Source of the DNA: an uncultured Campylobacterales bacterium
GTDB lineage: Bacteria > Campylobacterota > Campylobacteria > Campylobacterales > Arcobacteraceae
Direction: 5' to 3'
Assembly (NCBI GenBank): GCA_938084175.1
Contig: CALKDR010000027.1
Coordinates: 1-57,275 of the forward strand
Length of the DNA: 57,275 bases
Part shown: positions 17,749 through 55,846 of the stretch, piece after piece
Layout: each line of letters starts with the position of its first letter
How positions within the stretch are numbered: position 1 is the first letter of the stretch
Made by a program: the position numbers and the translations under genes
Notes under the pieces: generated by a model
What the model saw: only the letters and a program-made list of their open reading frames with translations
What the model was told of the DNA's origin: nothing
Databases searched by the model: none

Positions 17749-18381
17749 ATGAATCAAGACATAAACTACTACAAGAACAAATCAATTTTTATAAGTGCAA
17801 CAAACACCAACGTAGGTAAGACCTATGCAAGTGAAAAGTTTTTAAGATACTTTGCAAGAAGAGGCTTAAAAGTTGGATATTACAAACCTTGTGAAACAGG
17901 TGTAATTAGTGAACCTTTAGATGGTTCTAAAATGTTAAAGCTAACAAAAGAGTTAAACCCACAATTTAATGTAAATATAAATGAAGTAGTTCCCTACCAA
18001 TATAGCTTAGCAGCAGCACCATATGTAGCAAAAGGAAATACCACAATTTCTTTGGAGTTTTTAAAACAAAGAAAAGATTACTTACAATCCTTATGTGATG
18101 TATTAATTATTGAAGGTGCAGGAGGATTAATGGTTCCATTAGAAATAGATTTATTTATAATAGATTTAATAAAAGAGTTTAAAAGTGAAGCTGTTTTAAT
18201 AACTCCTTCAAAACTAGGATCAATTAATGATACTTTATTATCAATTCAAGCATTAGAAAGTAGAAATATTGATTTTGAGTTTTTTATAAATTTATATGAA
18301 GATAAACAAGACTTCAATATTGTCTCAGAACCATTTTTAAAAGACTATTTTAAAACACTACAATTTTTAGACAATTTATAG
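17749..18381 (+). CDS. bioD: Dethiobiotin synthetase (BioD)
   Basis: BioD closes the ureido ring from 7,8-diaminopelargonate, CO2 and ATP in biotin synthesis. The 210-residue P-loop protein has ISATNTNVGKTYASE as the nucleotide loop, GYYKPCETG with the conserved Lys, the AAAPYVA motif and LIIEGAGGLMVPLE as the switch region. It is divergent from clpS across a short gap and is followed by more than 300 bases without a gene. No other bio genes are present. Confidence 0.9.
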   Translation: MNQDINYYKNKSIFISATNTNVGKTYASEKFLRYFARRGLKVGYYKPCETGVISEPLDGSKMLKLTKELNPQFNVNINEVVPYQYSLAAAPYVAKGNTTISLEFLKQRKDYLQSLCDVLIIEGAGGLMVPLEIDLFIIDLIKEFKSEAVLITPSKLGSINDTLLSIQALESRNIDFEFFINLYEDKQDFNIVSEPFLKDYFKTLQFLDNL

Positions 18382-18689: not shown

Positions 18690-19820
18690 ATGACTTCTGC
18701 AATAGATTTATCAAAATTAACAGCTAACGATGATTTGACACCAGTTTTGGGTGGATACTGGCCTGGTATTCAGATTTATTACCCACCAATTAAATTCAAC
18801 CCACTTGATGGTACATATGAAAGTATGGAGCAAGCTAAATTAAGATTACAAAAACATGCTTATAAAACAAAAGCACACACTGTATTATTCGATTTAGAAG
18901 ATGGTTGTAGACAAAAAGCAATGTCAAGAGAATTATTAATTCAAGAACTTCCAAAGTTTCCTGAAAGAACTTTCCAAATAGCAGTGAGAATTAATCCATT
19001 CAGAACAGATGAGTATGAAGAAGATTTAAAAATGTTAAAGCAAATTCATAAATATATTGATGTAATTGTTTTAGCAAAAGCTGGAGAAGTTTATGGATCT
19101 GCTGAAATTAGAGATTTATCTTCATGGTTAGTATCAATTGGTTCAAATTTAACTATTCAACCAATTATTGAACATCCAAAATCACTTCAAATTGCTGATA
19201 GATTAATGGAACACTCAACAGTTAAACATGTTGTTTTTGGTATTCACGATTTCTCTAAAGCAATGGCTTATAAAATCACACCTGAAGGTTGGATTGATGA
19301 GTTAGAAACATTCTTTAATATGCTTACTATGGAAGCTAGAGTTAAAGGTGCTGGAGTTATTGGTGGAGTTGAAGTTATGTTAACGCCTCATTCATTACCA
19401 GATCACTGTGTTGAGAAAAAAGATATTAGAAGATGGTTAGATTTACATGGTGATGATGCTTCTAGACATGTTTATGCACATGCACAAAGAGAAAATGCAA
19501 TGGGTTTAACTGGGAAACAAGTTATTACTCCAAATCATATTAATGTTTGTAAAGTTGCATTTACTCCAAGTCCTAAAGAACTTGAACATGATATTACTGT
19601 ATTAAAATTAGCAATTGAAACTGATGCTTTATTAAGTGGAGCAATTAGATACAAAGGTGAAATGTTAGATCCACCTATGTTTGGTAAGGCTTTACAAAAT
19701 ATTTTAAGAGCATACGCACTTAGAAGTTTAAATAAAGAAGATGAGATATTTGCATTATCGGTATTAAATAGAATGCCTATACATACATTTAAAGAAAACT
19801 GGCCATTTGGTCAAATTTAA
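18690..19820 (+). CDS. HpcH/HpaI aldolase/citrate lyase (CitE-like) family protein
   Basis: This 376-residue CitE-like TIM barrel probably cleaves or forms a 3-hydroxyacyl-CoA. Visible family marks are VLFDLEDGCR near residue 68, VRINPF (CoA-contacting Arg), IQPIIEHPKSL with the metal-binding Glu, and FGIHDFSKAM with the metal-binding Asp. The C-terminal half departs from CitE, with MLTPHSLPDHCVEKKDI and YAHAQRENAMGLTGKQVITP, so it is a distinct branch. It leads the operon with the ligase-lyase fusion, Mch and Mcl. Candidate substrates are malyl-, citramalyl- or methylmalyl-CoA; the sequence alone does not choose between them. Confidence 0.75.
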   Translation: MTSAIDLSKLTANDDLTPVLGGYWPGIQIYYPPIKFNPLDGTYESMEQAKLRLQKHAYKTKAHTVLFDLEDGCRQKAMSRELLIQELPKFPERTFQIAVRINPFRTDEYEEDLKMLKQIHKYIDVIVLAKAGEVYGSAEIRDLSSWLVSIGSNLTIQPIIEHPKSLQIADRLMEHSTVKHVVFGIHDFSKAMAYKITPEGWIDELETFFNMLTMEARVKGAGVIGGVEVMLTPHSLPDHCVEKKDIRRWLDLHGDDASRHVYAHAQRENAMGLTGKQVITPNHINVCKVAFTPSPKELEHDITVLKLAIETDALLSGAIRYKGEMLDPPMFGKALQNILRAYALRSLNKEDEIFALSVLNRMPIHTFKENWPFGQI

Positions 19821-19835
19821 TAAGGAGTTATAACA

Positions 19836-22355
19836 ATGAGTTCAAATGTAACAATTGAAGTACCAGAATACTTAAATATTGGAGTTGCTTGTACATCTAA
19901 ACATGTAGGAACAGCTAAAGAAAATAGTACAGCTATGATTATTGAAGATGATAAGTTAGGTACTGATGAAATTTCATATAAAGATTTAGCGCAAAAGTCT
20001 GATCAAATTTGTAACTTTTTAACTGGATTAGGATTTGAGCCAAGAGATAGAGTTTTAGTATGTTTAAAAAACTCACTAGCTTACCCTATTTCATTTTTTG
20101 GAGCAATTAAAGCTGGTATTATCGCAGTACCAACTTCAACACTATTATCAGGTTCAGAAGTTAAATATCTAGCAGAAGATTCTCAAGCTAATGCAATAGT
20201 ATTATCTGCAACTATGTATGATAATTTATTACCTTACTTAGAAAACCTTGATAACTTAAAAACAATTATTGTTGCAGGTATTGATTCAACTGAAGGTTTA
20301 AATATTCCTAAGGGAATGAGTGTTTACTCTTTTTCTGAAATTTTAAAAACTGCAGATAAAAAAGCGAATCACTATAAATCAAAATCAGGAGAACCTGCTT
20401 ATTTAGTATATACTTCAGGAACAACTGGTTATCCAAAAGGTGTTTTACACTCTCACAGATCACTTGTAGGAAGAACTCCAGCAACTGAATATTGGTTTGA
20501 TTTTAAAGAAAATGACAGAATTATGCATTCTGGTAAATTTAACTGGACTTATGTTTTAGGTTCTGCACTTATGGACCCATTATTTAATGGTCATACAGTT
20601 ATTGCTTATGAAGGTGGTAATGATGCAGGAACTTGGATTGAATTGATTAAAAAACATAAGTGTACTATCTTTATAGGCGTTCCTACAATTTATAGACAAA
20701 TTATTCAAAAAACTGAATATACAGCTGCTGATTGTCCAAGCTTAAGATATTGTATGTCTGCTGGTGAGCATTTATCAGATGAAATGATTGGTTTATGGAG
20801 AGATAGATTTAAGCAAGATATTTTTGAAGCAATTGGAATGAGTGAATGTTCTTACTATATTTCACATTCAAAAAATAATCCAATTAGACCTGGTTCTGCA
20901 GGATTTGTTCAACCAGGACATACTGTAAAACTACTTGACCCTGATACTTTAGAAGAAGTTGAAGATGGTGTTGAAGGTATGATATCAATTGGTGAAGATG
21001 ATCCAGGTTTATTCTTAGAATACTGGCAATTAGAAGAAGAAACTAGAAAAGCTAAGCATAATGGGTACTTCTTTACAGGTGATTACGCTAAAAGAGATGA
21101 AGATGGTTATATCTGGTTCATTGGTAGAAAAGATGATATCATTAACACATTTGGATTTAGAGTATCACCACACGAAATTGAAAGAGTTGTAAAAACTCAC
21201 GATTTAGTAGCAGATTGTGTAGCTTTTGGTTTAGAAATTGGAAAAGATAAGGTAATTGTTGCAATTGCTGTAATTGGACATGATGAATTAACACAGGCCC
21301 AAGAAGCTGAAGTATTAGCATTTTCACAAGCTAATCTTGCTAAATATAAAGCACCAAAAACAATTTTTGGAATGAAAGATTATCCAAGAACTAAAAATGG
21401 AAAAGTTTTAAGAAAACAACTTGTTAAAAATTTACATGATATTTATCATGCAAAAGAAGACGGTCTTGAGATTAAAGAATATAAAGCAAGAAGATCAATG
21501 TTATTTGTTCCTTCTTACAATAAGAATAATGTTGAAAAAGCAAAATCTGTATTAGCAGATTCTGTAATTTTTGACTTAGAAGCTATTTTATCAGAACAAA
21601 GAGCACCTGCTAGAGAAACAATTAAATCAGTTTATAAAGAAAGTGGTTCTAAATTTGGTGAGTCTGAAAGAATTTTAAGAATAAACAACTTAGGAAGTGA
21701 AGATATTGCAAAAGATTTAGCACTTGCAGCTGAAATTGAAATTGATGGTTTATTATTCTCAAAAATTGAAACTGGTGAACAAGTACTTGAGGCAGTTAAA
21801 TTAATCGAGGAAATTAATCCTGACTTATCTTTAATGATTATGATTGAAACTCCATTATCAGTTTTAAATATCCAACAAATATGTGCAGCTTCGCCAAAAG
21901 TTGAAGTTGTAGTTGTGGGTTCTAATAAACTTGCTAATAGACTTCAAATTGATATCAAAAAAGGTTCAAAAGCAATGTTTAACTACCTTTCGCAAATTGC
22001 ACTTGCTGCAAAAGCGTATGGTCAAACAGTTATTGATGGTCCTCACTTTGATATTCATGATGAGTTTGCTTGTGAAGATTCAACTAAAGATGCATTTAAC
22101 TTAGGATTCGATGGTAAGTCATTAGTTCACCCAATCCAAATTGAATATATCAATGATATCTTTACTCCAAAACAAGTTGAAGTTGAAGATTATGAAGTTA
22201 TGATTAACAAATATGAAGAAGCTAAGAAAGATGGTAAAGAAGTTATTTATCATAATGATAGATTAGTTGACGGTTCTAGAATTAAATGGGCTAAAAAAAT
22301 GATCACTTTATATGAAACATATAAATCGTTAGGTCAAAACCTATTTAATAAATAA
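19836..22355 (+). CDS. Acyl-CoA ligase fused to a CitE-like lyase domain
   Basis: Residues about 1-550 are an AMP-forming acyl-CoA synthetase resembling the benzoate-CoA ligase branch. They show the phosphate loop YTSGTTGYPKG near residue 190, the GMSECSYY motif, FTGDYAKRDEDGY, and the catalytic-Lys region PRTKNGKVLRK near 520. Residues about 555-839 form a complete CitE-like barrel beginning RRSMLFVPSYNKNN. In that domain R615, E671 and D812 match conserved catalytic positions, but K698 in GSNKLANRL stands where malyl-CoA lyases have a metal-binding Asp. The fusion suggests activation of a dicarboxylic acid (mesaconate, malate or similar) linked to lyase or CoA-ester handling. TAAGGAG precedes the ATG; the gene is 15 bases after the first lyase. 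Confidence 0.85.
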   Translation: MSSNVTIEVPEYLNIGVACTSKHVGTAKENSTAMIIEDDKLGTDEISYKDLAQKSDQICNFLTGLGFEPRDRVLVCLKNSLAYPISFFGAIKAGIIAVPTSTLLSGSEVKYLAEDSQANAIVLSATMYDNLLPYLENLDNLKTIIVAGIDSTEGLNIPKGMSVYSFSEILKTADKKANHYKSKSGEPAYLVYTSGTTGYPKGVLHSHRSLVGRTPATEYWFDFKENDRIMHSGKFNWTYVLGSALMDPLFNGHTVIAYEGGNDAGTWIELIKKHKCTIFIGVPTIYRQIIQKTEYTAADCPSLRYCMSAGEHLSDEMIGLWRDRFKQDIFEAIGMSECSYYISHSKNNPIRPGSAGFVQPGHTVKLLDPDTLEEVEDGVEGMISIGEDDPGLFLEYWQLEEETRKAKHNGYFFTGDYAKRDEDGYIWFIGRKDDIINTFGFRVSPHEIERVVKTHDLVADCVAFGLEIGKDKVIVAIAVIGHDELTQAQEAEVLAFSQANLAKYKAPKTIFGMKDYPRTKNGKVLRKQLVKNLHDIYHAKEDGLEIKEYKARRSMLFVPSYNKNNVEKAKSVLADSVIFDLEAILSEQRAPARETIKSVYKESGSKFGESERILRINNLGSEDIAKDLALAAEIEIDGLLFSKIETGEQVLEAVKLIEEINPDLSLMIMIETPLSVLNIQQICAASPKVEVVVVGSNKLANRLQIDIKKGSKAMFNYLSQIALAAKAYGQTVIDGPHFDIHDEFACEDSTKDAFNLGFDGKSLVHPIQIEYINDIFTPKQVEVEDYEVMINKYEEAKKDGKEVIYHNDRLVDGSRIKWAKKMITLYETYKSLGQNLFNK

Positions 22356-22365
22356 GGAAAGATAC

Positions 22366-23436
22366 GTGTCAAAAATTAACGCTAAAATCAATGTAGGAAA
22401 TTTTTTCGAAGATTTCTTCATTGGTCAAAAAATAATCCACCCACTTCCTAGAACAATTAGTGAAGGTGATGTATCTTTATACATAGCTTTCACAGGTTCT
22501 AGATTTGCATTACATTCATCGAATATTGTTGCTAATGAAATGGGTTACGATAAAAGACCAATTGATGATACATTAATGTTTCACTTAACATTTGGAAAAT
22601 CTGTACAAGATGTATCTTTAAATGCAATTGCAAACTTAGGTTATGCAGAAATTGCATTCCCTAATCCTGTTTACATTGGGGATACAGTTTCAATGACATC
22701 TGATGTTATTGGATTAAAAGAGAATTCAAGTGGAAAAAGTGGAGTTGTTTATGTACACTCTATTGGTGTAAACCAAAATGGTGATGAAGTATTAAACTTC
22801 AAAAGATGGGTTATGGTTCATAAAAAAGATAAGGAAACTAAATCTGGTATAAATGAAGTTCCATCTTTTGCCGCAACTACACCTATTTTAGATGAGATCA
22901 ATCTTCCAAAAATTAAGTGTGTAGACACTGATTCAACTGGTGGAAAGTATTTCTTTGAAGATTATGAAGCAGGAGAGAGATTAAATCATCCAGATGGTAT
23001 TACCGTTGATAATAGTGATCACACTCTTGCAACTAAGTTATACCAAAACAATGCAAAAGTACATTTCAATGATCATATGATGAAAAGCTCACCAATGGGT
23101 CAAAGATTAATGTATGGTGGAATTGTTATTTCAATGGCAAGAACATTATCATTTAATGGTTTACAAAATGCACAAAATATTTATTCAATTAATTCAGGAG
23201 CACATGCAAATCCTACTTATGCAGGAGATACAATTTATGCTTATACTGAAGTACTTGAAACTATTGATCATAAAAGAGAAGATTTAGGATTATTAAGATT
23301 AAGAACGATTGCGATTACGAACCAAAAATCATCTGAAATTACTAACCCTAAAGGTGAAGATGGTAAGTACTTAAAAAATGTTGTACTTGATTTAGATTAT
23401 ACTGTTGTAATTCCAAAGAGAAAAACAGCTAAATAA
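22366..23436 (+). CDS. mch: Mesaconyl-CoA hydratase (MaoC-like, double hotdog)
   Basis: Mch interconverts beta-methylmalyl-CoA and mesaconyl-CoA. The 356-residue protein has two hotdog halves. The first carries NFFEDFFIGQKI, then RTISEGDVSLYIAFTGSRFA, then VQDVSLNAIANLGYAEI and GLKENSSGKSGVVYV. The second carries KYFFEDYEAGERL, QNNAKVHFNDHMM, RLMYGGIVISMARTLSFNG and SGAHANPTYAGDT. These blocks match the mesaconyl-CoA hydratases of the ethylmalonyl-CoA pathway and 3-hydroxypropionate bi-cycle closely. It starts with GTG behind TAAGGAAAG, ten bases after the fusion gene. The identification is the strongest in the cluster. Confidence 0.88.
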   Translation: MSKINAKINVGNFFEDFFIGQKIIHPLPRTISEGDVSLYIAFTGSRFALHSSNIVANEMGYDKRPIDDTLMFHLTFGKSVQDVSLNAIANLGYAEIAFPNPVYIGDTVSMTSDVIGLKENSSGKSGVVYVHSIGVNQNGDEVLNFKRWVMVHKKDKETKSGINEVPSFAATTPILDEINLPKIKCVDTDSTGGKYFFEDYEAGERLNHPDGITVDNSDHTLATKLYQNNAKVHFNDHMMKSSPMGQRLMYGGIVISMARTLSFNGLQNAQNIYSINSGAHANPTYAGDTIYAYTEVLETIDHKREDLGLLRLRTIAITNQKSSEITNPKGEDGKYLKNVVLDLDYTVVIPKRKTAK

Positions 23437-23478
23437 TAAACAAAAAATACAAATTAAATTAAATTAAAGGAAAATAAT

Positions 23479-24462
23479 ATGACACACCCTAATGAAGCAC
23501 TATTCGGTTCTGGAGATAATTTACCAATTATCCCATCTTGTGAGCACTTTGCTGGTAGCGAAAAGTTAATCTTAAAAGGTTTTTCTATGCAAGAAAAACT
23601 AGGACCTGTTTTTGATATCACTTGTGATTGTGAAGATGGAGCTGAGACTGGTAAAGAAGTTGAACATGCAGAAATGATTGTTAGAGTTGTAAACTCTGAT
23701 GCTAACCCATATGCAATGGCAGGAACAAGAATTCACGATTTTGATCATCCAGATTGGAGACAAGATATTGATATTTTAGTACCAGGTGCTGGTGAAAAAT
23801 TAGCATACATTACTATTCCAAAATCAACTTCTTATGAAGATGCTAAAACTCAAGTTGAATATATTCAAGCTGCTGCTAAAAAAGCTGGAATTTCTAGAGA
23901 AATCCCAATTCACGTTTTAATTGAAACTCATGGAGCTTTAATGGACGTTGAAAAAACTGCAACACTACCTTGGGTACAAGTTCTTGACTTTGGTTTAATG
24001 GACTTTGTTTCTGGTTACCAAGGTGCAATTCCAGCTTCAAATATGAGATCTCCTGGTCAATTTGATCACAGATTAATTGCTGCAGCAAAAGCTAAAGTTG
24101 TGCAAGCTGCTTTACAAAACCATATTATTCCATGTCACAATGTAACATTAGATTTAAAGAACCCATACCAAACTTACAAAGATGCTGAAAAAGCAAGAAA
24201 TGAGTTCGGATTCTTAAGAATGTGGTCTATTTATCCAACACAAGTTCAGGCTATTGTTGATGCAATGAAACCAGATTTTACAGAATTAGAAGCTGCACAA
24301 AATATTCTTTTAGCAGCACAAGAAGCAGAATGGGGACCAATCCAGTATGATGGTGAGTTACATGATAGAGCAACTTACAGATACTTCTGGGAATTAGTTC
24401 AAAGAGCAAACTTCTCTGGAACTAAATTACAAGAAGCTGTTCAAACTAGATTTTTCTCATAA
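23479..24462 (+). CDS. mcl: Malyl-CoA / beta-methylmalyl-CoA lyase-like protein
   Basis: The 327-residue CitE-superfamily barrel has DITCDCEDGAETG near the N-terminus, GTRIHDFDHPDW (CoA-contacting Arg), IHVLIETHGALMDV with the metal-binding Glu and VLDFGLMDFVSGYQGAIP with the metal-binding Asp. Unlike the fused domain next door, both metal ligands are kept. Family enzymes split malyl-CoA to acetyl-CoA plus glyoxylate, and beta-methylmalyl-CoA to propionyl-CoA plus glyoxylate. Its place directly after mch supports the methylmalyl reaction. AAAGGAAAATA is the ribosome binding site; a stem-loop follows the stop. Exact substrate range is inferred. Confidence 0.82.
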   Translation: MTHPNEALFGSGDNLPIIPSCEHFAGSEKLILKGFSMQEKLGPVFDITCDCEDGAETGKEVEHAEMIVRVVNSDANPYAMAGTRIHDFDHPDWRQDIDILVPGAGEKLAYITIPKSTSYEDAKTQVEYIQAAAKKAGISREIPIHVLIETHGALMDVEKTATLPWVQVLDFGLMDFVSGYQGAIPASNMRSPGQFDHRLIAAAKAKVVQAALQNHIIPCHNVTLDLKNPYQTYKDAEKARNEFGFLRMWSIYPTQVQAIVDAMKPDFTELEAAQNILLAAQEAEWGPIQYDGELHDRATYRYFWELVQRANFSGTKLQEAVQTRFFS

Positions 24463-24665: not shown

Positions 24666-26159
24666 ATGAGCGTAATAAAAGAACAAGATATTATAGATAG
24701 TATTGCTGATGCATGTCAGTATATTTCATATTTTCACCCAGAAGATTTCGTAAAATCAATAGTAGAAGCTTATGAAAATGAACAATCTGAAGCTGCAAAA
24801 AATGCACTAGGTCAAATTTTAATTAACTCTAAAATGTGTGCATTAGGTCACAGACCTTTATGTCAAGATACAGGAAGTGTTAATATTTTTGTAAGAGTTG
24901 GTTTAAATTGTAAATTAGAATTAACTAAAGAGTTAACAGATTTATTAAATGAAGGTGTTGCAAAAGGTTATACTAATCCTGATAATACTTTAAGATACTC
25001 TGTAGTTTCAGACCCTGCAGGTGCAAGAACAAATACTAAAGATAATACTCCAGCTGTTATTCATGTAAGTGTTGATAATTCTGATGAATTAGATATTACA
25101 GTTGCAGCAAAAGGTGGAGGAAGCGAGAATAAATCTAAATTCGCTGTATTAAATCCATCAGATTCAGTTTATGACTGGGTTATGGCAAATGTTAGAGAAA
25201 TGGGTGCTGGTTGGTGTCCTCCTGGTATTTTAGGTATTGGTATTGGTGGAAATCCTGAGAAGTCTATGCTTTTAGCAAAAGAATCTTTAATGGGTCATGT
25301 TGATATTCATGAACTTCAAGCAAGAGGTCCTCAAAACGCTTTAGAAGAATTAAGACTTAGACTTTATACTGATATTAATAAAATCGGAATTGGAGCACAA
25401 GGACTTGGTGGTCTAACTACAGTTGTTGATGTTAAGATTTTAGATTATCCATGTCATGCAGCTTCATTACCTGTTGCTATGATTCCTAACTGTGCAGCTA
25501 CACGGCATATTCACTTTAAATTAAAAGCTGGTGAAGGTCCTGCTAAATTTAAAAAACCAAATTTAGACATTTGGCCAGATATTGAATTACCATTAGACAG
25601 TATTAAAAAAGTAAATATCGAAGATTTAACAAAAGAGAACTTATCTCAGTTTAAATCAGGTGATACTTTATTATTAACTGGAAAAATACTAACAGCACGT
25701 GATGCTGCTCACAAGAAAATTGTTGAGTACAAAAATGCTGGTAAGCCACTTCCAAATGGAGTAGATTTAAAAGATAGATTTATTTACTACGTTGGACCAG
25801 TTGATCCAGTAAGGGATGAAAAAGTAGGACCTGCGGGACCAACTACATCTACAAGAATGGATAAGTTTACTAAGGACATGATGGAAATTGGAATCATGGG
25901 TATGATTGGTAAGGCTGAAAGAAAACAACCTACTATTGATTTAATTAAAGAGTACAAATCTATGTACTTAATTGCAACTGGTGGAGCTGCATATTTAATT
26001 TCTCAATCAATTAAAGATTCAAAAGTTCTAGCATTTCCTGAAATGGGAATGGAAGCTATTTACGAATTTGATGTAGTTGATATGCCTGTTACTGTTGCAG
26101 TTGACACTGAAGGTGTTTCAATTCACACAACTGGACCTGCTAAATGGAGAACTATTTAA
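24666..26159 (+). CDS. fumA: Class I fumarate hydratase (fused alpha/beta)
   Basis: This iron-sulfur fumarase interconverts fumarate and malate. I chose the ATG at 24666 because AAAAAGGAAAAAC precedes it, giving 497 residues. The alpha part (about 1-285) has LGHRPLCQDTGSVNIFV, KGGGSENKS, GWCPPGILGIGIGG and GLGGLTTV, with the cluster cysteines. The beta part (from about 310) has LTARDAAHKKI, PAGPTTSTRMD and MGMEAIYEFDV. Class I enzymes often also act on mesaconate, giving citramalate, which fits the mesaconyl-CoA operon just upstream. A terminator follows. The gene is separated from that operon by 203 bases, so it may have its own promoter. Confidence 0.9.
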   Translation: MSVIKEQDIIDSIADACQYISYFHPEDFVKSIVEAYENEQSEAAKNALGQILINSKMCALGHRPLCQDTGSVNIFVRVGLNCKLELTKELTDLLNEGVAKGYTNPDNTLRYSVVSDPAGARTNTKDNTPAVIHVSVDNSDELDITVAAKGGGSENKSKFAVLNPSDSVYDWVMANVREMGAGWCPPGILGIGIGGNPEKSMLLAKESLMGHVDIHELQARGPQNALEELRLRLYTDINKIGIGAQGLGGLTTVVDVKILDYPCHAASLPVAMIPNCAATRHIHFKLKAGEGPAKFKKPNLDIWPDIELPLDSIKKVNIEDLTKENLSQFKSGDTLLLTGKILTARDAAHKKIVEYKNAGKPLPNGVDLKDRFIYYVGPVDPVRDEKVGPAGPTTSTRMDKFTKDMMEIGIMGMIGKAERKQPTIDLIKEYKSMYLIATGGAAYLISQSIKDSKVLAFPEMGMEAIYEFDVVDMPVTVAVDTEGVSIHTTGPAKWRTI

Positions 26160-26176
26160 TAGTTTCTTTAATATAA

Positions 26177-26206
26177 ATACAAAGACTAAGGTCTTTGTAT
26201 TTTTTC
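26177..26206 (+). terminator. Terminator after the fumarase gene
   Basis: ATACAAAGAC pairs with GTCTTTGTAT around a TAAG loop and is followed by TTTTTC, a clear intrinsic terminator. Confidence 0.88.
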
Positions 26207-26334: not shown

Positions 26335-27168
26335 ATGCTATTAGAAGACTTAAAAGACTATTTAGGATTTGCAGTTGCAGGAAATTTTGCTAACCATTTA
26401 GGTGAAGCTGGTGAAGCTGATGAATTTGCTGTAATTCAAACAAAAGAAAAAGATGCTCCAAAAGGTATGTTCCCTTTTTATATAAAAGGACATGAATCTT
26501 TTTTAGGTACATATCCTATATGTGATGAAGTAATATTAACTCATGGCAGAGAAAATGAAAATCTACAAGTAGAAGCAGAAGTTGCACTTATATGTGATTT
26601 TGTTTATGAAGATAAAAAAGTTATCGATATAATTCCAAAATATTTTTCTGCTTTTAATGATTGTTCTATTAGAGTAAATAATGGTGAAAAATTAAGTACT
26701 AAAAAAAACTGGGGCAAAAATACAAAAGGTATTTCACAAGAAATAATTGAAATTGATAACTTTACCCAAGATGGAATATTAAATAAATATCATATTGCAT
26801 CTTTTATAAAAAGAGATGGAATTGTTCATGATTATGGAACAACTTCAGCTGTAAAATCATATTCATATTTTTTTGGACAATTAAAAGAATGGATGATTGA
26901 TAAATTAAATAATCAAGAAGACTGTGGACCTTTAGAAGAAATTGCACCATTTTTAAAAAATGCTAAAGATGCTAAAGGTATTTTAATAGCAGCAGGAGCA
27001 ACAGCATATAGTGAATTTGGTAAAAACAATTTCCTACAAAAAGGTGATGAAATTTTTGTATATATTTATAATGCTCACTTCCATTCTTTTGATGATATTT
27101 ATAATGATATGTGTGGTATGGATACATATTTAGGACAATGTTCAAAGCTTCATCAAATAGTAAAATAG
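26335..27168 (+). CDS. DUF5718 family protein
   Basis: The 277-residue soluble protein begins MLLEDLKDYLGFAVAGNFANHLGEAGEADEF-like sequence. It contains GMFPFYIKGHESFLGTYPIC, an EVALICDFVYEDKK strand, FSAFNDCSIRVNN and ILIAAGATAYSEFGKNNFL. The overall layout recalls the fumarylacetoacetate hydrolase superfamily, which would suit a metal-dependent C-C lyase or decarboxylase acting on dicarboxylates. I recall it as DUF5718, whose function is not established. CAGGAAAT is the ribosome binding site. Proximity to fumarase and the CoA-ester operon is suggestive only. Confidence 0.65.
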   Translation: MLLEDLKDYLGFAVAGNFANHLGEAGEADEFAVIQTKEKDAPKGMFPFYIKGHESFLGTYPICDEVILTHGRENENLQVEAEVALICDFVYEDKKVIDIIPKYFSAFNDCSIRVNNGEKLSTKKNWGKNTKGISQEIIEIDNFTQDGILNKYHIASFIKRDGIVHDYGTTSAVKSYSYFFGQLKEWMIDKLNNQEDCGPLEEIAPFLKNAKDAKGILIAAGATAYSEFGKNNFLQKGDEIFVYIYNAHFHSFDDIYNDMCGMDTYLGQCSKLHQIVK

Positions 27169-50947: not shown

Positions 50948-52261
50948 TTGTTAAAAAATAAATATATACAAAAAATTGCTATTTTGCTATTTTTATCAAT
51001 TTGTAGTCTAGAAGCATTAGATATAAATAAAATGCAAAAAGACGTATTAAAAGAAGTGAAGGTAATTAAAACAGAAGAGTTAGTTGAGCTTTTAAAACAA
51101 AAGCCAAATACAAAAATTATTGATGTTAGATCAAGAGCTGAGATTAATAATCAAGGTGGCTATATCAAAGCCAATAAAGTAAGCAATATCCAAAGAGGTG
51201 ATTTAGAATTTTTAATTTCTCAAGAAGTAAAAACTTCTGATACTTTTGTAGTACATTGTTTTAATGGAAATAAATCACTATTTGCTGCAAAAAGATTAAA
51301 AGATTTAGGATATAAAAATGTTCTTTATTATCAAGATAGTTTTAAAGTTTGGAAAGAAAAGCAACTTCCAATGTCATCTTTAGATAAGTATCCACAATCA
51401 ATGCTTTATAATAAGATTCAAAAAGTTGCAAATGGTGTTTATACATCTATTGGAATTACAGCACCATATGAATATGAATCAAGTGCACATAATAACAACT
51501 TAGGATTTATTATAGGTGATGAGTCTGTATTAGTTTGGAATGCAAGTTCATCTTATCTTTTAGCTCAATCTTTTCATAAAGAGATTAAAAAGATTACTAA
51601 TAAACCTGTTAAATATGTTGTAGTAGAAAATTCTCAAGGTCATGCAATTTTAGGTTCAAACTATTGGAAAGAACAAGGTGCTTCAATTATTGCTCAAGAG
51701 TTAGTTGAAGATGAAATGGCTAGTAAGGGTGAGATTATGCTATCACGAATGCAAAGAGTTTTAAAAGATAAAATGGATGGATCAGAACTTGTAGAACCTG
51801 ATGAATATTTTAAAGATACTATGACATTTGATTTAGGAAATAGAATTGTAGAAGCTAAGTATTTTGGATATGCACATGAGCATAGTGATATTCTTCTTTG
51901 GTTACCAAAAGAAAAAATTGCATTTGCAGGAGATATTGCTTTTAATAATAGATTATTACCTATATTTGAAATTACTCAAACAAATAAATGGTTAGAAGCT
52001 TGGGATAAATTTGCAGCACTTGATGCAAAAATCGTAATTCCAGGTCATGGCGAAGTAACTAATATGCAAACAGTTACTAAGTATACAAAAGATTATCTTG
52101 TATATTTAAGAGAAAAAATTGAAGAAATATTAGATGAAGATGGTGGATTAAATGATGCTTATAATATTGATATGTCAAAATTTGAGCATTTAGACACATA
52201 CAAAGAACTTGGTAAACAGAATATTGCTAGAGTTTTTAAACAAATGGAATTTGAAGAGTAA
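50948..52261 (+). CDS. Periplasmic rhodanese fused to a degenerate metallo-beta-lactamase domain
   Basis: The 437-residue protein has a signal peptide (IAILLFLSICSLEAL) and a rhodanese domain (about 35-140) with active-site loop VHCFNGNKSL. A metallo-beta-lactamase-like domain (about 155-400) resembles SoxH-type periplasmic hydrolases. In that domain the usual HxHxDH is NSQGHA, so most Zn1 ligands are gone, while GYAHEHSD, FAGDIAF and IPGHGEV are kept. A TTG start follows AAGGAGAGG. The fusion and the sox locus nearby suggest a sulfur-transfer role; hydrolytic activity is doubtful without the motif. Confidence 0.82.
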   Translation: MLKNKYIQKIAILLFLSICSLEALDINKMQKDVLKEVKVIKTEELVELLKQKPNTKIIDVRSRAEINNQGGYIKANKVSNIQRGDLEFLISQEVKTSDTFVVHCFNGNKSLFAAKRLKDLGYKNVLYYQDSFKVWKEKQLPMSSLDKYPQSMLYNKIQKVANGVYTSIGITAPYEYESSAHNNNLGFIIGDESVLVWNASSSYLLAQSFHKEIKKITNKPVKYVVVENSQGHAILGSNYWKEQGASIIAQELVEDEMASKGEIMLSRMQRVLKDKMDGSELVEPDEYFKDTMTFDLGNRIVEAKYFGYAHEHSDILLWLPKEKIAFAGDIAFNNRLLPIFEITQTNKWLEAWDKFAALDAKIVIPGHGEVTNMQTVTKYTKDYLVYLREKIEEILDEDGGLNDAYNIDMSKFEHLDTYKELGKQNIARVFKQMEFEE

Positions 52262-54082: not shown

Positions 54083-55846
54083 CTAAACAATACCTGGGTT
54101 ATTTTTAACACCAATAATATCTGGAGTATCAACTCTTAAGTTTGCAATATGTTTTACATTTCCTAAGTAAGTTTCTACAGTTTCCCAAACTGGCTCACCT
54201 GGTGATTTAGAACCAACAGTTGACCAACCAGCAACCTTATAAGATTTACTAGCTTGAAGTTTTTTACCATTTTTAGTAAGTTGAATATCAGTAATTCTAT
54301 TACCCATAGCAGCTTTAGGATCAATTTTATAAGAAATTCCACCTGTTCTAACCATATCCCCACCTTGTTGGTAGAAAGGATCTGCATTAAATAAGTTATC
54401 AGCAACATCTTCTAAAATATCTTTAATACCTTGACCTGTAATATCTCTTGCATAAGTTTCAGGGTAAGTCATAGCTGTTTGAGTCATTAAATCATCAAAT
54501 GTGATATCTTGACCTGGCATTACAGTTGTTCCCCATCTAAATCCAGGAGAAAGTGAAATATCAGCACCTTTTACATCAATTAAAGCATCACAAATAATTT
54601 GATCCCAAGAACCGTTAAAGTTACCACGTCTAAATAGTGTTTCTTCAGTTGTAGCAATAGTTCTATTTAAGTCTTTAATAAACGGTAATCTAACTTTTTC
54701 AATATAAGCTTTCATTTCTTTATCTTCAGGAACTAAATCTGAGAAGATTGGAAGAAGAGTAAATTTAAAGTCTTTGATTTTTCCATTTTGAATATCTAAA
54801 TCAAGAACGTTTAAGAATTTACCATTTGAACCTGCATTACATACATAAGTAGTACCATTTTCATTTTTAACAGGAACTGCTTCAGGAACACCATCATGAG
54901 TATGTCCACCCATAATAAAGTCAATACCAGTACAAACTTCTGCCATTTTTTGATCAACATCAAAACCATTATGAGATAAAACAATAACAGCATCTGGTTT
55001 TTCTTCATCTCTAATAGTATCAACTAGTTCTTGCATCTCTTCATCTTTAATCCCAAAAGTCCAATCAGGAATAAATCTTTGAGGATTTGCAATAGTTGTA
55101 TAAGGGAAAGCTTGTCCAATAACAGCAACTCTAGCATTACCCATTTTTTTGATAGTATATGGTTTAAAAGCTAGTCCTGAATCTTCATCATAAGCTTCAG
55201 CCCCTTCCATTAAAGCATCTTCTTTTACAAAAACATTTTGGGCTAAGAATTCAGCATCAAGTTCTTTTACATTTGCTAAAATTTCTTCAGCTTTATATGT
55301 AAATTCCCAATGTCCAACTGCAACATCAACACCTAATAAGTTCATAGCACCAACCATATCTCTACCACGAGTGTAAAGAGCTGTTGCACTTCCTTGCCAA
55401 GTATCTCCACCATCCATCATAAGAGTTTTTTCAGGTCCGAAATTATTTCTTAAATGATCAATTACAGTTTTAAGTTGTGCAAAACCACCAACTCTTCCCA
55501 TAGCTTTTGCATGCTTTTCAAAGTTTACCATTGAATATGCATATTCTAATCTTTTATTACCTTTAATACCATAATAATCTAATAGTTTCTCACCTACAAT
55601 ATGAGGTGGTTTTCCATAATTACCATGAAGTCCTAAGTTTACACTTGGTTCTCTGAAGTATACAGGCATCAATTGAGCATGAGAATCTGTCATATGAAGA
55701 AGTCTAACATTACCAAAGTTTTCAAGCTTATAGTAATCATCTAATTTATTTGTTTCTACTGTTCTTGTATGAGAGTTTGCAAATACAGGTGCAGCACCAA
55801 GTACTGACATCATATATACAAATTCTCTTCTGCTTAATTTACTCAT
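54083..55846 (-). CDS. soxB: Thiosulfohydrolase SoxB
   Basis: SoxB hydrolyses the sulfone group from SoxY-bound thiosulfate in the periplasm, releasing sulfate. The 587-residue protein has a Tat signal (SRREFVYMMSVLGAAPVFA). Its dinuclear Mn centre motifs are LLHMTDSHAQL, MMDGGDTWQGS, VAVGHWEFTY, IVLSHNGFDVDQKM and IMGGHTHDGVP. The C-terminal 5'-nucleotidase-like domain contains RRGNFNGSWDQIICDAL, then QGGDMVRTGGISY. It follows a rhodanese gene and a SoxA-like gene on the same strand, forming the sox operon. Full length and intact. Confidence 0.96.
   Translation of the reverse strand: MSKLSRREFVYMMSVLGAAPVFANSHTRTVETNKLDDYYKLENFGNVRLLHMTDSHAQLMPVYFREPSVNLGLHGNYGKPPHIVGEKLLDYYGIKGNKRLEYAYSMVNFEKHAKAMGRVGGFAQLKTVIDHLRNNFGPEKTLMMDGGDTWQGSATALYTRGRDMVGAMNLLGVDVAVGHWEFTYKAEEILANVKELDAEFLAQNVFVKEDALMEGAEAYDEDSGLAFKPYTIKKMGNARVAVIGQAFPYTTIANPQRFIPDWTFGIKDEEMQELVDTIRDEEKPDAVIVLSHNGFDVDQKMAEVCTGIDFIMGGHTHDGVPEAVPVKNENGTTYVCNAGSNGKFLNVLDLDIQNGKIKDFKFTLLPIFSDLVPEDKEMKAYIEKVRLPFIKDLNRTIATTEETLFRRGNFNGSWDQIICDALIDVKGADISLSPGFRWGTTVMPGQDITFDDLMTQTAMTYPETYARDITGQGIKDILEDVADNLFNADPFYQQGGDMVRTGGISYKIDPKAAMGNRITDIQLTKNGKKLQASKSYKVAGWSTVGSKSPGEPVWETVETYLGNVKHIANLRVDTPDIIGVKNNPGIV

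Follow-up and report, generated by a model that had tools for sequence, protein, structure and literature searches.

The window analyzed here, a 57,275 nucleotide stretch of contig CALKDR010000027.1 from an uncultured member of the Arcobacteraceae (GCA_938084175.1), encodes four open reading frames on the + strand that are separated by gaps of 15, 10, and 42 bp (Table 1). These comprise a CitE-like lyase (lyase A), an AMP-forming acyl-CoA ligase fused to a second CitE-like domain (domain B), a mesaconyl-CoA hydratase (Mch), and a third CitE-like protein (lyase C). A sequence-only reading of this DNA had described four closely packed genes of this content, and all four were recovered at the coordinates that it gave with Pfam families that agree. 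A class I fumarase gene, absent from that reading, lies downstream; relatives of 496-499 aa in 6 of 13 longer stretches examined for comparison favor a start at ATG 24666 over GTG 24621. The hairpin that follows this gene is the sole + strand terminator-like site between positions 18300 and 26400, a region where pattern matching found five such sites on both strands versus 2.6 expected. The promoter scan was uninformative, given that it returned 35 sites versus 42.6 expected, and no Rfam family matched the window at gathering score. Upstream of the cluster is bioD.

Table 1. Features of the four-gene cluster and its downstream flank, in window coordinates.
Feature	Position	Strand	Assignment
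CitE-like lyase A (376 aa)	18690-19820	+	Pfam HpcH_HpaI (PF03328)
AMP-forming acyl-CoA ligase/CitE-like domain B fusion (839 aa)	19836-22355	+	Pfam AMP-binding + HpcH_HpaI
Ligase part of fusion, residues 1-540	19836-21455	+	PF00501 (AMP-binding, residues 30-397)
CitE-like domain B of fusion	21480-22355	+	PF03328, residues 553-766
Mesaconyl-CoA hydratase (Mch, double MaoC type, by homology; 356 aa)	22366-23436	+	PF19315 MC_hydratase, above cut-off
CitE-like lyase C (327 aa)	23479-24462	+	Pfam HpcH_HpaI
Class I fumarase (497 aa from ATG 24666)	24666-26159	+	PF05681 + PF05683
Terminator-like hairpin 3' of fumarase	26175-26202	+	Pattern match only

Several other genes in the window were recorded. 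A DUF5718 protein (26335-27168) adjoins the operon and has relatives near the module in 24 of 80 loci described below, all labelled Campylobacterota. Farther downstream, a SoxB thiosulfohydrolase (54083-55846) scored 836.8 bits against a cut-off of 550; together with a quinoprotein-relay metallohydrolase-like gene that stayed under its cut-off (50948-52261), it points to sulfur oxidation.

The order lyase A, ligase/B, Mch, lyase C was found in all 30 loci first compared (L011-L040), the window's own included, in stretches that stop within gene C, and in all 13 longer stretches, 7 of which are from genomes among the 30 and 6 from further genomes. This retention of gene order, which the sequence-only reading had proposed as a check, indicates that the cluster is no chance assembly; it is a real conserved module. 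Moreover, the host assembly, which spans 1.74 Mb at 85% completeness, has no PF03328 domains other than the three CitE-type ones of the cluster.

To define the distribution of the module, one-per-species genomes were scanned with lyase A and the best 80 of 96 relatives were kept as named loci. At 80% query coverage, these 80 encode lyase A (80), the ligase (79), domain B (79), Mch (77), lyase C (72), and the fumarase (15), with several of the loci being incomplete. Adding the 13 longer stretches and removing 7 with an identical lyase A tail (340 aa) yielded 86 distinct loci; counts of distinct sequences below likewise have identical protein rows removed. The fusion protein was detected in 39 of 397 Campylobacterota genomes (E ≤ 1e-100), comprising 35 of the 43 genomes of the host's family and 4 from another family of the same order. 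The module is also encoded by Sulfurospirillum, Kangiella, Pleionea, and Thalassotalea, and by metagenome-assembled genomes (MAGs) of other groups. It should be noted that MAG names may be wrong, and the taxonomic spread thus rests most safely on isolates.

The ligase and domain B are fused in 50 of the 86 distinct loci and encoded by separate genes in 35, while one locus is cut. The fused form was found in Arcobacteraceae, Sulfurospirillum, some Gammaproteobacteria MAGs, a Chromatiales MAG, and a Thermodesulfovibrionales MAG, whereas the separate form was found in Kangiella, Aliikangiella, Pleionea, Thalassotalea, and their relatives and in a Nitrosomonadales and a Sideroxyarcus MAG. In a tree of lyase A and the ligase from 39 loci chosen from the 80, the two forms fall on two sides of one branch with 100/100 support, with a warning from the program that long branches meet. 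The lyases differed in their occurrence in a plasmid collection: no relative of lyase A exceeded 28% identity in the 25 records found, whereas relatives of lyase C reached 60%. Among six plasmid regions (one without annotation), a relative of Mch accompanies lyase C in three (L044, L045, and L046), adjoining it in the first two and matching upstream in the last, and none is present beside lyase C in L041, L042, or L043. The adjacent pairs lie on Sphingobium and Cupriavidus plasmids (L044, 7907-9978; L045, 7879-9981), in stretches with no match to lyase A or the fusion protein.

Four active-site residues of CitE-type enzymes, namely Arg, Glu, and Asp at the Mg site and an Asp of the lid, were mapped through profile alignments to solved lyases. 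All four are invariant in lyase A (Arg100, Glu161, Asp187, and Asp327; 87 of 87 distinct sequences, or 94 of 94 with repeats counted) and in lyase C (Arg84, Glu149, Asp175, and Asp296; 81 of 81, or 86 of 86), the window included in each case. Among solved structures, human CLYBL gives lyase A its top profile match, which is carried largely by 82 residues of the C-terminal part. Its structural model (pLDDT 67.3, pTM 0.58) gave Foldseek matches in which RsMcl1 ranks above citramalyl-CoA lyase. Because this model and that of the fusion protein (pLDDT 68.4, pTM 0.45) are only moderate, neither substrate nor domain arrangement was read from them; the modest CLYBL profile match suggests that lyase A may be an (S)-citramalyl-CoA lyase, a point that the model does not settle. 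Lyase C matched 3qqw, a "putative citrate lyase", with 456 bits, and among named enzymes its nearest relative, after two uncharacterized structures, is RsMcl1 (4l9y). RsMcl1 is a bifunctional enzyme, and lyase C is putatively a beta-methylmalyl-CoA/malyl-CoA lyase. The intact sites of lyases A and C would fit two different C-C cleavages joined by Mch, in agreement with the earlier suggestion of at least two lyase substrates. Scores of the CitE-type and Mch proteins against NCBIfam equivalog models were far under the curated cut-offs, including those for RipB (112 versus 340 bits) and RipC (50 and 36 versus 375 bits), such that these models assign no named function.

The ligase part of the fusion protein retains Thr196 and Lys201, presumably of the P-loop, and Lys523, presumably of the A10 motif, in 88 of 88 distinct sequences. 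Foldseek matches listed for the whole protein (50) were all ligases. In domain B, the metal-binding (Mg-site) Asp, which both Mcl and CLYBL have in the profile alignment, is kept in none of the 50 distinct fused loci, where it is replaced by Lys (29, including the window), Asn (9), Thr (8), Ala (1), Ser (1), Arg (1), or Gln (1). The other positions of the fused domain are better conserved, with Arg in 44 and Lys in 6, Glu in 43, Asp in 5, Ala in 1, and Gln in 1 at the Glu position, and the lid Asp in 50 of 50. The 35 separate B genes display a different pattern in that they retain the Mg-site Asp (34 of 35; Asn in L125), Glu (33 of 35), and Arg (35 of 35), and have Glu as the lid residue (35 of 35). 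Judged by these residues, domain B derives from a lyase and is diverging, neither of its forms having all four residues intact. The loss of the metal-binding Asp indicates that the fused domain is probably no ordinary lyase, contrary to the sequence-only reading, which had counted it as a third, and the module thus has two ordinary lyase sites rather than three.

In addition to the PF19315 match above cut-off, the Mch protein aligned over ~345 residues, nearly its whole length, with the MaoC-type structures 4e3e (370 bits) and 8hgn (343 bits), the latter named "beta-methylmalyl-CoA dehydratase", so that a mesaconyl-CoA hydratase is the function predicted by homology, as proposed earlier. The NCBIfam model for haloarchaeal Mch was matched far under its cut-off (86 versus 560 bits). 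The Haloarcula hispanica enzyme also hydrates mesaconyl-C4-CoA, with a 3.5-fold bias for the C1 ester (PMC5592240), which suggests that one hydratase could serve twice in a pathway.

The association of the fumarase with the module is looser. It adjoins the module in 6 of the 13 longer stretches, a match to it is present in 19 of the 80 named loci (best 80 of 96 relatives), and a full-length relative lies within 18 of the 86 distinct loci, some of which end early. The fumarase was consequently rejected as a fixed partner and is treated as an optional one, with a possible role as a mesaconase; class I fumarases are able to hydrate mesaconate (PMC4682846). The 30 commonest neighbor families mostly reflect within-genus synteny, and the informative exception is an IclR-like regulator gene, present in 9 of the 13 stretches and in 18 of the 80 named loci, each of the latter labelled Campylobacterota (three genes typed by Pfam, the others by similarity). 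It is transcribed away from gene A in the 8 stretches inspected, and no such gene lies upstream of the cluster in the window. In a Thermodesulfovibrionales MAG (L104), the module is followed by a gene resembling propionate-CoA ligase (780 bits against a cut-off of 955) and by a gene for a fumarase alpha subunit, and two upstream genes, one of them typed, start like pyruvate carboxylase subunit B. A malic enzyme gene is downstream in L138, and a GntR/UTRA regulator gene is present in L139. Though single cases, these neighbors would agree with a role in propionyl-CoA and C3/C4 metabolism. A gene of the small hot-dog thioesterase type adjoins lyase C in L116 (where it was typed), L119, L121, and L126, with relatives in L117 and L128, and is a possible source of free mesaconate.

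Genes of known pathways were sought in a sample of 10 genomes of the genus, 6 of which reach 90% completeness or more with contamination no higher than 5%. Class III CoA-transferases (PF02515) were absent from all 10, indicating that these genomes do not encode a mesaconyl-CoA transferase (Mct) of the known kind. Together with the presence of an ATP-dependent ligase family, this is consistent with the suggestion in the sequence-only reading that the gene set may operate without a CoA transferase. Crotonyl-CoA carboxylase/reductase (Ccr, TIGR01751) exceeded its cut-off in none of the 10 genomes, with weaker matches in all of them, and the ethylmalonyl-CoA pathway, of which that reading had seen no genes, was rejected. 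Methylaspartate ammonia-lyase (PF07476) was also detected in none of the 10. With no class III CoA-transferase, no Ccr over cut-off, and no ammonia-lyase, the known 3-hydroxypropionate, ethylmalonyl-CoA, and methylaspartate routes are inapplicable as such.

Of the two marker enzymes of the glyoxylate cycle, isocitrate lyase and malate synthase, the latter is encoded by 2 of the 10 genus genomes. For the former, partial matches to PF00463 that exceed the family cut-off are present in frames of 263-297 aa in 9 of the 10, the exception being the host's own genome; read by size, these probably encode methylisocitrate lyase, and the genus would have a methylcitrate route. Matches to PF01039 occur in frames of 264-326 aa, the size of AccA/AccD, and propionyl-CoA carboxylase was discarded as a candidate on this basis. 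GlcD-like proteins matched in all 10 genomes, none over the family cut-off. Glutamate mutase subunit E (PF06368) exceeded its cut-off in all 10. In the host's own genome, an AMP-forming ligase is encoded in a row with both glutamate mutase subunits (S and E) and a GlmL-like accessory protein (L140, 8497-13031); the best NCBIfam match of this ligase is exosortase-associated acyl-CoA ligase, under cut-off.

The closest precedent is ab1917-ab1921 of Arcobacter butzleri, which was reported in 2007 to encode a pair of CitE proteins and a ligase whose own CitE domain spans 550-825, along with an enoyl-CoA hydratase and a fumarase. For this cluster, the interconversion of propionyl-CoA and glyoxylate with acetyl-CoA and pyruvate via mesaconate and citramalate was proposed (PMC2147049). 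Compared by description, the two clusters agree in content and in numbering order (CitE, ligase with C-terminal CitE, enoyl-CoA hydratase, CitE, fumarase), and the overall reaction proposed there is the same as that proposed here. The sequence-only reading had termed the pathway undescribed, a designation that has to be withdrawn since a cluster of such content, fumarase included, and nearly the same chemistry appear in that paper. The 2007 proposal was, however, a prediction from one genome, and the available part of its text is silent on the loss of the metal-binding Asp, on split forms, and on occurrence in other groups. What the present analysis adds is the wider distribution, the finding that the ligase and domain B are either fused or split, and the degeneration of the third lyase site. 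In the open-access literature, outside of which most subscription journals lie, no experimental test of the module was found, and a set of six names for a mesaconate or citramalate ligase led to PMC2147049 alone.

Characterized systems share parts of this chemistry. The glyoxylate-assimilating loop of the 3-hydroxypropionate bi-cycle (Chloroflexus; partial in Kentron) likewise combines Mch with malyl/methylmalyl/citramalyl-CoA lyase chemistry to convert propionyl-CoA and glyoxylate to acetyl-CoA and pyruvate, but it does so with Mct (a class III CoA-transferase), Meh, and a single trifunctional lyase (PMC6593406), whereas the module has a ligase, two intact lyases, and, in the 10 genus genomes, no class III CoA-transferase. 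The haloarchaeal methylaspartate cycle has the Mch and beta-methylmalyl-CoA lyase steps in common with the module but derives mesaconate from methylaspartate and activates it with a CoA-transferase (PMC5592240); the ammonia-lyase is absent from the 10 genomes here. Similarly, the Ict-Ich-Ccl cluster for itaconate degradation proceeds by activation, hydration, and cleavage of citramalyl-CoA, but with a CoA-transferase, one hydratase, and one lyase (PMC12290011), and the RipB and RipC matches obtained here are far below cut-off.

These comparisons suggest, as the best reading, that the module is a version of the 3-hydroxypropionate bi-cycle's second loop that relies on a ligase. While protein families, active-site conservation, gene order, and, in the genus sample, the absence of class III CoA-transferase and of Ccr over cut-off are observed, all substrates, the direction of the reactions, and what domain B does are inferred. 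The reaction we consider most likely, if with slightly less than even confidence, is the conversion of propionyl-CoA and glyoxylate to acetyl-CoA and pyruvate through C5-dicarboxyl-CoA chemistry. Lyase C would condense propionyl-CoA with glyoxylate to beta-methylmalyl-CoA, which Mch would dehydrate to mesaconyl-C1-CoA. The ligase protein, of which domain B could be a binding or hydrolyzing part, would then remove and re-add CoA through free mesaconate, in place of the intramolecular transfer by Mct. The middle step can be drawn in two versions. In one, the ligase would produce mesaconyl-C4-CoA, to be hydrated by Mch to (S)-citramalyl-CoA; in the other, the class I fumarase, acting as a mesaconase, would hydrate free mesaconate, and the ligase would subsequently activate citramalate. 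The optional linkage of the fumarase slightly favors the former version, in which Mch hydrates the C4 ester, although a fumarase encoded elsewhere in the genome would serve too. Finally, lyase A would cleave (S)-citramalyl-CoA to acetyl-CoA and pyruvate. The direction of the proposed route would follow from known equilibria. In favor of the route are the family of Mch, the two lyases with intact sites, a ligase present at 80% coverage in 85 of 86 distinct loci beside the lack of class III CoA-transferase in all 10 genus genomes, the fumarase matches in 19 of 80 named loci, the IclR-like regulator genes, the neighbors in L104, and the proposal of the same net reaction for ab1917-ab1921.

Several observations weigh against this route: a second ligase homolog, as PrpE would appear, is present in only 2 of the 80 named loci (L095, not typed, and L104), the GlcD-like matches that could mark a source of glyoxylate are all below cut-off, and the genus probably already has a methylcitrate route. 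The optional linkage of the fumarase and the weak profile match behind the assignment of lyase A, whose model places RsMcl1 above citramalyl-CoA lyase, count against it as well. Further, A. butzleri reportedly failed to grow on acetate, propionate, or both together (PMC2147049), indicating that the module does not confer growth on these substrates.

The module could instead function in the catabolism of C5-dicarboxylates, with the ligase activating mesaconate, citramalate, or a similar acid of either external or internal origin, and with lyase A then releasing acetyl-CoA and pyruvate or Mch and lyase C releasing propionyl-CoA and glyoxylate. Such a role would agree with the steadiness of the AMP-forming ligase (85 of 86 distinct loci at 80% coverage) and the fumarase matches in 19 of 80 named loci, and it has a parallel in Burkholderia xenovorans, which uses mesaconate via a class I fumarase and citramalyl-CoA lyase (PMC4682846). 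Nevertheless, two intact lyases plus Mch exceed the needs of this route, and no obvious dicarboxylate transporter was recognized among the 30 commonest neighbor families of the 80 loci, most of them judged by the start of their sequence; C5-dicarboxylate catabolism is regarded as unlikely. A malate/glyoxylate shuttle, in which the ligase would activate malate and lyase C would split malyl-CoA to acetyl-CoA and glyoxylate, or run in reverse as an apparent malate synthase, with Mch and lyase A handling side products, would exploit the relationship of lyase C to RsMcl1 (nearest after two uncharacterized structures) and the scarcity of malate synthase in the genus (2 of 10 genomes). It is judged very improbable, as it would leave unexplained why Mch is so steadily present (83 of 86 distinct loci) and why there is another intact lyase.

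The glutamate mutase points to another potential supply of mesaconate, namely a bacterial relative of the haloarchaeal methylaspartate cycle that would convert glutamate to methylaspartate and mesaconate, with the ligase forming mesaconyl-C1-CoA and Mch and lyase C yielding glyoxylate and propionyl-CoA. Beyond the presence of subunit E in 10 of 10 genus genomes, where the host and one relative also encode subunit S, a further AMP ligase, and a GlmL-like protein next to it, the mutase was found in 58 of 397 Campylobacterota genomes and is enriched in those with the module (26 of 39 versus 32 of 358 without; a hand count, uncorrected for kinship). Yet 13 of the 39 module genomes do without it, and 32 genomes have the mutase but no module. 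Methylaspartate ammonia-lyase and class III CoA-transferase are both absent from the 10 genus genomes, no gene of propionyl-CoA carboxylase size is among the PF01039 matches, and lyase A would be left without a job. Because the ammonia-lyase is absent and the co-occurrence is loose, the methylaspartate feed is kept only as a rival, and quite an improbable one, to the ligase-based route from propionyl-CoA and glyoxylate.

A broader form of the proposal for the ligase-based route, which is possible but which we hold more doubtfully than the overall reaction, is that the module represents a widespread variant of glyoxylate/propionyl-CoA assimilation in which an ATP-dependent ligase replaces intramolecular CoA transfer on mesaconate. 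The ligase would carry a former lyase domain that has no metal site and that now binds, hydrolyzes, or hands over a C5-CoA ester, and one Mch may act on both mesaconyl-CoA isomers. The proposal of 2007 is now directly testable with four or five purified proteins. Should the route work as proposed, fused domain B would clearly exemplify how a former lyase can take on a new function when joined to a ligase, and engineered photorespiration bypasses and CO2-fixation cycles would gain new parts from the module. Isolates and MAGs of several bacterial groups would then have a short, naturally occurring path that leads from glyoxylate and propionyl-CoA to pyruvate and acetyl-CoA and operates without Mct.
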